Positions 51,882 through 55,376 of a stretch of DNA of 64,000 nt are shown here, piece by piece. The notes below the pieces were generated by a model. The model worked only from the letters and a program-made list of their open reading frames with translations. It was not told the DNA's origin and did not search any database. A program made the position numbers and the translations under genes. This stretch comes from Citricoccus sp. CH26A (GTDB lineage Bacteria; Actinomycetota; Actinomycetes; Actinomycetales; Micrococcaceae): positions 1-64,000 of the forward strand of contig NZ_AFXQ01000004.1 in NCBI RefSeq assembly GCF_000224415.1. The letters run 5' to 3'. Numbering within the stretch: position 1 is the stretch's first letter; each line of letters opens with the position of its first letter.

Positions 51882-52367
51882 ATGAGCGATCCGCATCCCA
51901 CCCCCGACCGCCCCGACTCCGTCCCCGCCTCGCCCGCCGCCCCCGGTCCCACCGGTGATCCGGCGGCGCGGGATCGTCCGGACGCGGAGTGGCGCGAGCG
52001 CCTGAGCCCGGCCGAGTTCCAGGTCCTGCGCCAGGCCGGGACCGAGCGCCCGTTCACCGGTGAGTACTGGGACACCGAGACCGAGGGCGTCTACGCCTGC
52101 CGCGCGTGCGGCTCGGAGCTGTTCCGCTCGGACACCAAGTTCGACGCCCACTGCGGCTGGCCCTCCTTCTTCGCCCCGCTGGCCGAGGACCGGGTGGAGT
52201 ACATCCGCGACTCCACCCTGGGCATGGAGCGCATCGAGGTGCGCTGCGCCAACTGCGGCTCGCACATGGGGCACGTGTTCCAGGGCGAGGGCTTCGGCAC
52301 GCCCACCGACCTGCGCTACTGCATGAACTCGGTGTCCCTGACCCTGCAGCCCAAGGCCGGCGCGTGA
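51882..52367 (+). CDS. msrB: Peptide-methionine (R)-S-oxide reductase
   Basis: Repairs oxidised methionine (R form). It is 161 residues with a ~35-residue Pro-rich leader. Two zinc CxxC pairs (CRACG and CANCG), the GWPSFF motif and the catalytic Cys in RYCMNSVSL are all present. The ATG at 51882 is preceded by GGGGA; the frame is open further upstream without similarity. The stop overlaps the aldolase start (GTGA). Confidence 0.96.
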
Positions 52368-53434
52368 GCGGACCCGCCCCGCGCGGCTTCGCCTCGGACA
52401 ACTACGCCGGCGTCCACCCCGAGGTGCTCGCGGCCATCGCCGAGGCCAACACCGGCCACGAGAGCGCCTACGGTGACGACTCCTGGACGGCCCGGTTGCA
52501 GGAGGCGGTCCGCGGGCAATTCGGTGAGCGGGCCGAGGGGTTCCCGGTCTTCAACGGCACCGCGGCGAACGTGGTCGCGCTGCAGTCGCTGCTGCCCCCC
52601 TGGGGCGCGGTGATCTGCGCCGAGAGCGCCCACATCCACCAGGACGAGGGCGGGGCCCCCGAACGCGTGGCCCGCACCAAGCTCTACACCGTGCCGACCC
52701 CGGACGGGAAGCTCACCCCCGCACTGGTCGACACCCAGGCCCACGGCCTCGGCTTCGTCCACCGTGCCCAGCCCGCCGTGGTCGAGATCGCCCAGGTCAC
52801 CGAGCTGGGCACGGTCTACACCCCGGACGAGGTCCGGGCCCTGGCCGACCACGCGCACGGCCTGGGCATGGCGCTCTACGTGGACGGTGCCCGACTGGCC
52901 AACGCGGCCGCCGCGCTGGGCACCTCGCTGCGCTCGTTCACCACCGACGCCGGGGTGGACATCGTCTCCTTCGGCGGCACCAAGAACGGGGCCCTGGGGG
53001 CCGAGGCCATCGTGCTGCTGAACCCGGACGCCGTGCAGGCCGGGCCGCAGGGGGCCGGGAAGACGGTGGAGTACCTGCGCAAGTCCTCGATGCAGCTGGC
53101 CTCGAAGATGCGCTTCGTCTCGGCCCAGCTGGTCGCCCTGCTGACGGACGAGCTGTGGCTGCGCTCGGCCCGGCACGCCAACGCGATGGCGGCACGGCTG
53201 GCCGAGGGGGTCCGCGCCCTCGACGGCGTCACCCTCACCCAGGAGCCGGCCGCCAACCAGGTGCTGGCCGTGCTGGACCCGGCGGTCGCCGAGGCCGTGC
53301 GCTCCCGGTACGCGTTCTACGACTGGGACCGCTCCCGGAACGAGGTGCGCTGGATGACCTCCTGGGACACGACCGCCGACGACGTGGACGGTTTCACCGC
53401 CGCCCTGTCCTCCGCACTGGCCGCCGCGCGGTGA
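52364..53434 (+). CDS. ltaE: Low-specificity L-threonine aldolase / beta-eliminating lyase
   Basis: PLP enzyme cleaving threonine to glycine and acetaldehyde. It is 356 residues. The PLP lysine is in [14 protein letters not shown], and [13 protein letters not shown] carries the cofactor-binding Asp. [19 protein letters not shown] at the start and [12 protein letters not shown] are family signatures. The GTG at 52364 overlaps the msrB stop, so the two are coupled. Confidence 0.93.
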
Positions 53435-53491: not shown

Positions 53492-54094
53492 GTGACTGCC
53501 CTAGGCCACCATCCCGCAGAGTCGCGGCGCCTTCCCACGGAGTTCCGCGAGGCGCTCGCGGGCCTGCGCCGCGCCCGGCACCGGCAGGAGGTCACCCTGG
53601 ACGAGATCCCGGTCCCCGGCCGGCTGGCGCCGTATGCCGTGGCCCTGGCCGCCGAGGTCCACGAGTCCTCGGACCTGGGCCCGTCCGAACTGGCCACCGG
53701 ACGGTTCATCCTGCTCCACGACCCGGCCGGCTCCGAGGTCTGGCAGGGCACGTTCCGGGTGGTGACCTACATCCGCGCCTCGCTCGAGCTGGACCTGGGC
53801 AGTGATCCGATGCTCGGCGCCGTGGCATGGACCTGGCTCGTCGAGGCACTGGAGACCCACCACGCCCGCTACACCGAGGCCGGTGGCACGGCCACGCGCG
53901 TACTCTCGGAGAGCTTCGGCGGACTGGCCACGCGGCCGGACACCACCGACATCGAGCTGCGGGCATCATGGACCCCCGAGGGTCCGGACACCACCGAACA
54001 CCTGGAGGCCTGGGCTGACATGGTCTGCGCCTTCGCCGGCCTGCCCCCGGTCCCGGACGGGGTCACGCCCCTGCCGCGCATCAGGAGGAACTGA
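53492..54094 (+). CDS. DUF3000 family protein
   Basis: A 200-residue soluble protein of the actinobacteria-specific DUF3000 family, recognised from EFREALAGLRRARHRQEVTLDEIPVPGRLAPYAVALAAEV and from its constant place before the RNase D-like gene. No catalytic motif is evident. The GTG start appears leaderless. The stop lies inside TGACATC, one base before the proposed start codon of the next gene. Confidence 0.9.
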   Translation: MTALGHHPAESRRLPTEFREALAGLRRARHRQEVTLDEIPVPGRLAPYAVALAAEVHESSDLGPSELATGRFILLHDPAGSEVWQGTFRVVTYIRASLELDLGSDPMLGAVAWTWLVEALETHHARYTEAGGTATRVLSESFGGLATRPDTTDIELRASWTPEGPDTTEHLEAWADMVCAFAGLPPVPDGVTPLPRIRRN

Positions 54095-54095
54095 C

Positions 54096-55376
54096 ATCAC
54101 CGCAGAGACCAGCCGCATCCCGGAGACGACCGAGCCCGAGGCACAGACCGAGGCTGCGGCCGCGGTCCCCCGGCTCATCACGGAGCCGGCGGGAGGAATC
54201 CCCTTCGTCACCGAGACCGTGCAGGAACTCGAGCGGTGCGCCCGCCTGCTGGCGGCCGGCACCGGTCCGGTGGCCGTCGACGCCGAGCGGGCCTCCGGGT
54301 TCCGCTACGGCCAACGCGCCTTCCTCGTCCAGATCAAGCGCGAGGGTGCCGGCATCTGGCTCATCGACCCGGAGGCGTTCGACGACCTCGCGGTCATCCA
54401 GGAGTCCCTGACCGGCGTGGAGTGGATCCTGCACGCCGCCACCCAGGACCTGCCCTGCCTCTCGGAACTGGGGATGTGGCCCGACCGGCTGTTCGACACG
54501 GAACTTGCGGGCCGGATCCTCGGGCTGCCCCGGGTGGGCCTGGCCTCCGTGCTAGAGCAACTGCTCGGGGTCACGCTGGCCAAGGAACACTCCGCCGCCG
54601 ACTGGTCCAAGCGGCCACTTCCCGAGGACTGGCTGCGGTACGCGGCGCTCGACGTCGAGCTGCTCGTGGAACTGCGCGCCGCCATGGTGGGCATGCTCGA
54701 GGCCTCCGGCAAGCTCGACTGGGCCGAGGAGGAGTTCGAGGCCATCCGCACCACTCCCCTGCCGGGGCCCCGCACGGACCCGTGGCGCCGGACCTCCGGG
54801 ATGCACAAGCTGCGCCGGCCCCAGCAACTGGCGGTGGTCCGGGAGCTCTGGGAGGCCCGGGAGGCACTGGCCCGGAACCGGGACACCGCCCCGGGACGGC
54901 TGATCCCAGACTCGGCGATCGTCTCCGCGGCCGCGGCCCAGCCCTCCACGGTCCCCGCGCTGCTGAAGACCCCCGGCTTCCACGGCCGGGCCGCCGCCAA
55001 GGAGGCGCCGCGCTGGCTCCGGGCCATCCAGGCCGGGCAGGCGGCGGCACGGACCCCCGACCGGTTGCCGGCACTGCACGTGCCCAACGAGGGCCCGCCC
55101 CCGCCGCGCGTGTGGAGGGACCGCAACCCGCTGGCCGACCGCAGGCTCAAGACGGCCAAGGAGTGGGTGGGCAACAAGGCCGAGGAGCTGAACCTGCCCA
55201 CCGAGAACCTGCTGACCCCGGACACGTTGCGCCGGGTGTGCTGGACCCCGCCCGAGGCGATCGACCTGGACTCGGTCTCGGCCGCGCTGACGGATCTCGG
55301 CGCCCGCCGGTGGCAGGTGCAGATCACGGCGCCGATCATCACCGTCGCACTGCTGGATCCCGATCCGGCCGCGTGA
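54096..55376 (+). CDS. rnd: RNase D-like 3'-5' exonuclease with HRDC domain, possible ATC start
   Basis: The DEDD exonuclease residues are visible: VDAERASGFRYG (Asp, Glu), LHAATQDLPCL (Asp) and YAALDVELLVEL (YxxxD). HRDC-like helices follow (RRPQQLAVVRELWEAREALAR). From 54096 it is 426 residues, the usual size. AGGAGGAA (54083-54090) is ideally placed for initiation at 54096, but that codon is ATC. The nearest canonical in-frame start is GTG 54219, which lacks a well-spaced ribosome binding site and would cut ~41 residues. Either ATC is used, or a base differs from the true sequence. Confidence 0.88.
   Translation: MTAETSRIPETTEPEAQTEAAAAVPRLITEPAGGIPFVTETVQELERCARLLAAGTGPVAVDAERASGFRYGQRAFLVQIKREGAGIWLIDPEAFDDLAVIQESLTGVEWILHAATQDLPCLSELGMWPDRLFDTELAGRILGLPRVGLASVLEQLLGVTLAKEHSAADWSKRPLPEDWLRYAALDVELLVELRAAMVGMLEASGKLDWAEEEFEAIRTTPLPGPRTDPWRRTSGMHKLRRPQQLAVVRELWEAREALARNRDTAPGRLIPDSAIVSAAAAQPSTVPALLKTPGFHGRAAAKEAPRWLRAIQAGQAAARTPDRLPALHVPNEGPPPPRVWRDRNPLADRRLKTAKEWVGNKAEELNLPTENLLTPDTLRRVCWTPPEAIDLDSVSAALTDLGARRWQVQITAPIITVALLDPDPAA

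Follow-up and report, generated by a model that had tools for sequence, protein, structure and literature searches.

A conserved AUC or AUU codon beside the DUF3000 stop is the probable start of an RNase D-like gene in Citricoccus and three related genera

Comparison of a 64,000-nucleotide stretch of the Citricoccus sp. CH26A genome (contig NZ_AFXQ01000004.1, referred to here as the window) with related genomes suggests that an RNase D-like nuclease is translated from an AUC codon at position 54096. We read it as a weak start, conserved as AUC or AUU next to the stop codon of the upstream DUF3000 gene and probably sensitive to IF3, and put the probability of this reading at about 0.86. A Shine-Dalgarno (SD) sequence, a stop codon a few nucleotides upstream and an AUC or AUU codon are found together in four genera, and no other single type of start fits every genome.

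Results

Arrangement of the locus and identity of the nuclease

The two genes lie on the forward strand. The upstream partner, an open reading frame at 53492–54094, encodes a DUF3000 protein (PF11452, Pfam E=8e-72), and its final codons, AGG AGG AAC TGA, contain the SD of the nuclease gene, AGGAGGA (54083–54089), which is identical in 8/8 genomes of the genus. The core AGGAGG (54083–54088) stands 7 nt before the A of an ATC codon (54096–54098), with the DUF3000 stop TGA (54092–54094) one base ahead of the ATC. The strong ribosome binding site followed by ATC that was described in the original prediction is therefore present as claimed. In 33 ORFs of the window AGG accounts for 3.4% of arginine codons and AGG-AGG for 2/135 Arg-Arg pairs, so that the SD is built from two uncommon codons. 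The ORF that precedes DUF3000 (52364–53434), which by eye we take to resemble a threonine aldolase, has its probable start at a GTG that shares bases with a TGA (52364–52367); ORF calling extends it upstream to 52106.

The ATC is in frame with an ORF that ends at 55376, and the gene at 54096–55376 would encode a 3'-5' exonuclease of 426 residues. Pfam searches identify a DEDDy exonuclease domain (PF01612, E=2.1e-35), an HRDC domain after it (PF00570, residues 244–311, E=3.7e-15) and a C-terminal DNA_pol_A_exoN domain (PF18305). Residues D62, E64, D118, Y182 and D186 are invariant in an alignment of 26 sequences, and by our own assignment they would form the D-x-E, D and Y-x(3)-D elements of the DEDDy motif, with the catalytic D62-A-E64 encoded at 54279–54287. 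Both the exonuclease motif and the HRDC domain place the protein among the RNase D-like DEDDy enzymes. The score against the E. coli-type RNase D equivalog TIGR01388 is 148.1 bits, under the cut-off of 298.95, and for this reason the gene is named RNase D-like only. The AlphaFold model of the protein has a mean pLDDT of 88.5; in Foldseek it gives a TM of 0.82 with the Bifidobacterium protein 3cym and 0.61 with E. coli RNase D (1yt3). By protein identity the closest named matches are from metagenome-assembled genomes titled Citricoccus sp. WCRC_4 (97%) and Micrococcus sp. Bu38 (91%), followed by Citricoccus zhacaiensis (83%).

The start codon across the genus and the family

The family sample comprised 149 genomes from 32 genera, all 149 of which have the nuclease gene, and the start region was read in 148 of them (G074, where the gene lies at a contig end, was left out). 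Three loci that repeat the contexts of G003, G004 and G007, seemingly from the same assemblies (L031, L032 and L033), were not recounted, and L058, with a frame broken near the start, was excluded. This last locus, from Arthrobacter sp. RIT-PI-e, seems to encode the start of the nuclease in a different frame from the domain, perhaps through a frameshift in the assembly. The contig of another locus, L079 (WNZI01000002.1), bears the title Vibrio cholerae strain 35D, yet its nuclease is Micrococcaceae-like (68% identity) and is preceded by DUF3000; mislabelling or contamination of the record is probable.

In 133 family genomes a DUF3000 stop lies no more than 400 nt upstream of query residue 42, and in these we scanned the interval from the stop (less 12 nt) to residue 42 for ATG, GTG and TTG. 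A canonical codon was found in 118/133. The 15 genomes that have none all belong to four genera: g1 (Citricoccus), g2, g16 and g21. Two g21 genomes fall among the 118, G027 and G140; they have ATT and ATC at the site after the same type of SD, plus TTG or GTG further in. These two, the 15 and two more g21 genomes make up the 19-genome set used below.

Every Citricoccus genome (8/8) has ATC at the site, in the context AGGAGGAAYTGACATCAC. The single g2 genome reads TGA-ATC-ATT, the single g16 genome TAA-C-ATC-ATC, and the nine g21 genomes have ATT (8) or ATC (1); in these three genera, too, an SD precedes the codon. In g2 and g16 either of the two adjacent codons could serve, and we took the first as the start column. 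The first ATC or ATT follows the stop by 0 to 2 nt in the four genera, and by 3–4 nt if the second codon is used in g2 or g16, so that stop and start overlap or stand a few nucleotides apart throughout, as in a termination-reinitiation pair. The genes also combine the lack of a usable ATG, GTG or TTG with a conserved near-cognate codon at SD distance, by which we define a noncanonical start. Outside the family, a canonical codon occurs at most 70 codons upstream of the anchor in 42/42 genomes read, of 109 with a match.

The original prediction had left two alternatives, initiation at AUC or a wrong base in place of ATG. The first is strongly supported by the comparison, with ATC in all eight genomes of the genus and ATT or ATC in 11/11 of the other three genera. 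A sequencing or assembly error would agree with the ATG that several relatives have at the aligned first position (for example L014, L017, L020, L022 and L023). It would have to have recurred in eight genomes of the genus, one of them a single-contig assembly (G001), and as ATT or ATC in three further genera that include the single-contig assemblies G008 and G096. We regard the error as refuted, with a vanishingly small probability.

The third base of the start is C or T in 19/19 genes. One base change would turn the codon into ATG, and 0/19 have it. As a comparison, the 19 genes share 72 four-fold columns in which the first two bases are identical; none of these is all C/T and 2/72 lack G, while all-C/T columns number 23/191 within g1 and 3/129 within g21; these figures form a test that is partly conditional, the four genera having been chosen for the absence of a canonical start.

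Upstream and downstream frames

ATC alone would suit an internal codon, because isoleucine in CH26A is almost always encoded by ATC (569/572 codons in the 33 window ORFs). This counts against the AUC start, and the argument for it is built instead on the relatives and on the closure of the upstream frame in several genomes. In CH26A itself the upstream frame is open through DUF3000 to a GTG at 53802, which the original prediction had omitted, and translation could begin there or at another codon inside DUF3000; an in-frame GTG lies within DUF3000 12 codons before the ATC in G001, G005 and G007 (3/8 genus genomes). Elsewhere the frame is closed. In-frame stops precede the start by 11 codons in G004 (TGA), 8 in G112, 8 in G027 and 1 in G008, with no canonical codon between, and in G002, where the upstream stop is 150 codons ahead of the anchor, no ATG, GTG or TTG occurs between that stop and codon 150. 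An upstream start is refuted for the clade unless the genomes differ among themselves, and we consider it highly unlikely. The GTG 12 codons upstream, and a GTG at codon 4 in G140, also weigh against the AUC reading; neither is common to the whole 19-genome set.

As the original prediction stated, the first canonical codon in frame after the SD is the GTG at 54219–54221 (codon 42), and it has no suitable ribosome binding site: the nearest SD-like string, GGGAGGAA at 54191–54198, is 20 nt away, which is not a working distance. A protein begun at this first canonical codon would keep the catalytic D62 and E64, and residues 1–20 are predicted by AlphaFold to be disordered (pLDDT <50). It would, however, lose P31, G34 and P36, which are nearly invariant in the 26 sequences, along with a predicted strand at residues 26–28, and the alignment with the solved relative 3cym already begins at residue 24. 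Nor is the codon conserved: among the eight genus genomes it is GTG only in G000 and G003, and GTA in G004. The next canonical codon downstream is codon 150 in G002, 80 in G008, 101 in G077, 99 in G054 and 151 in G126, in these five of the 19 genomes beyond the D-x-E at codons 55–68. Initiation at 54219 is thus very improbable.

The stretch before the domain keeps its frame with the domain despite changes in length, its third positions are the most variable, and its pooled pN/pS is 0.48 in g1 and 0.54 in g21 against 0.14 and 0.10 past the D-x-E, calculated from pairs that are not independent. For these reasons the first codons of the nuclease look translated. We presume that the public annotation of the N-terminus is probably wrong.

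These codons could also be read as part of a DUF3000-nuclease fusion, produced when ribosomes either shift by +1 at AAC UGA C or read through the stop. The AGGAGG ahead of UGA C is similar in layout to the +1 frameshift site of prfB, and the nuclease frame in the genus is +1 relative to DUF3000. Across the genera, however, the nuclease is offset from DUF3000 by +1 (g1, g16), 0 (g2) or +2 (g21), and a single frameshift or read-through event common to all of them does not fit. In addition, tRNA-Asn would be expected to pair poorly with ACU or AUU after slipping, and in many relatives the two genes are tens of bases apart and the nuclease has its own start. A fusion is therefore very improbable. 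We also rejected mRNA structure as the controlling element, as four 70-nt stretches fold no better than their shuffles (z +0.42 to +1.42).

Phylogeny and the arrangement in other genera

The partial-protein tree (135/148 loci) groups g1 with g2 (0.966) and g16 with g21 (0.954) and joins the four at 0.408 only. In the full-protein tree (49 taxa of 101, with g12 and g13 absent), g2, g16 and g21 group together (100), as do g1 and g14 (100), and all of these are joined at 90. The two trees disagree, with g2 placed differently, and it follows that the AUC/AUU start may have had either one origin with a loss in g14 or two origins. That g14 (Micrococcus by its named members), the sister of g1 in one of the trees, starts the gene with ATG is a point against the AUC reading.

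Among the 131 family genomes outside the four genera, 15 have an SD, 30 have neither SD nor box, and 86, as a raw count without a shuffled control, have a TANNNT-type −10-like box 3–10 nt before an in-frame start (85 ATG, 1 GTG). A box similar to TAGACT or TAGAAT stands just before the nuclease ATG in g6, g7, g9, g19, g20, g22, g23, g31, g32 and others. This suggests that the boxed genes are expressed as leaderless transcripts from a promoter of their own. A leaderless promoter is among the readings that we rejected, the box count covering the family genomes outside the four genera.

SD-led starts with GTG or ATG occur in 5/6 g12 genomes and 6/7 g14 genomes; both genera are close to the four in the partial-protein tree, and g14 is so in the full-protein tree as well. 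The SD string of 4/6 g12 genomes, AGGAGGARCTGACG, is nearly that of Citricoccus, and their GTG is one codon further on. Since both genera have SD-led canonical starts, the close spacing behind an SD may have existed before the AUC codon arose.

infC in the same genomes

The textbook IF3-controlled gene is infC. Its start position is ATT or ATC in 20/20 family genomes checked (L228–L247, of which L234 is from CH26A). No canonical in-frame codon lies within 60 codons upstream in 6/20, CH26A included; the 14/20 that do have one in frame further upstream are a point against the proposed reading. Gene finders restricted to ATG, GTG and TTG would misplace the infC start.

Discussion

We propose that the strong SD within the last DUF3000 codons would hold a 30S subunit, or a ribosome that has just ended at the UGA, at the AUC. 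The initiator tRNA would pair with the A and U and mismatch at the third position, so that fMet would be placed on AUC and initiation would be inefficient. Nuclease output would then be low and coupled to the translation of DUF3000, and IF3, which rejects such codons and is itself encoded by a gene with AUU or AUC at its start here, could tune the amount of the enzyme. That initiation would be weak, SD-dependent and probably IF3-sensitive we infer from published work (PMC5472188, PMC13009471, PMC9410913, PMC2268962) together with the infC starts; in excerpts of PMC2268962, extra IF3 lowers re-initiation, and less so with an SD.

By analogy with pcnB and sigR, the likely purpose would be to hold an RNA 3'-trimming exonuclease low while it tracks initiation capacity. 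A weak start that keeps the nuclease low is plausible, given that G never occurs at the third base and that infC, pcnB, sigR and ccpN offer precedents. We suggest more tentatively, and with less than even confidence, that IF3 control may reach beyond infC: scarce IF3 would yield more exonuclease, tying RNA maturation or turnover to initiation capacity, and selection would have kept AUG out across the four genera.

Noncanonical starts are already known, and the nuclease appears to be a further candidate case. These genomes would thereby have a second candidate in addition to infC. The gene also echoes pcnB as another RNA 3'-end enzyme, and with it IF3 control outside infC can be tested in harmless bacteria. 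Among the matches listed in searches of the open-access literature, we found no report of an AUC or AUU start in an RNase D-like gene and, by title, none on a noncanonical start for RNase D in Actinobacteria; no open-access paper was found for Citricoccus and start codon.

Within the same enzyme class, E. coli rnd (RNase D) has a less usual start codon, UUG, on which the matches listed in the open-access literature held nothing by title. UUG is a canonical minor start, in contrast to the AUC or AUU proposed for the nuclease. According to excerpts of PMC5472188, few bacterial genes with AUU, AUC or AUA starts have been characterised, partly since start prediction assumes ATG, GTG or TTG. Conserved noncanonical starts with strong SDs are found in Staphylococcus aureus in cvfC1 (AUU) and ccpN (AUA); in the excerpted text of PMC13009471, such AUU and AUA starts, conserved and preceded by extended SDs, reach about 10% of the output of AUG when the medium is poor, and ccpN up to 30% in rich medium. 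These are other genes in another phylum, and their starts were mapped by Ribo-Ret, whereas that of the nuclease is derived by comparison.

Streptomyces sigR is also actinobacterial and, like the nuclease in our proposal, has a noncanonical start that keeps its expression down, in its case through repression by IF3 (PMC5472188, in part). Its codon is GTC and its product a sigma factor, and the effect of IF3 has been demonstrated for sigR, while the nuclease is known from sequence comparison. The likeness to infC, which starts with ATC in Streptomyces (PMC5472188, in part), lies in an AUU or AUC codon after an SD, conserved over genera and present in the same genomes. The gene differs in that it encodes IF3 and its weak start provides autogenous feedback (same excerpts), whereas our gene encodes a nuclease and its proposed start sits right next to the stop of the preceding gene. 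Finally, pcnB, which excerpts of PMC9410913 describe as the other E. coli gene with an AUU start, encodes poly(A) polymerase I, a protein unrelated to the nuclease and from another phylum. It is likewise an RNA 3'-end enzyme, and its AUU start limits its translation, as stated by the title of Binns & Masters 2002 (cited in PMC9410913 and PMC13009471); the AUC or AUU of the nuclease may act in the same way.
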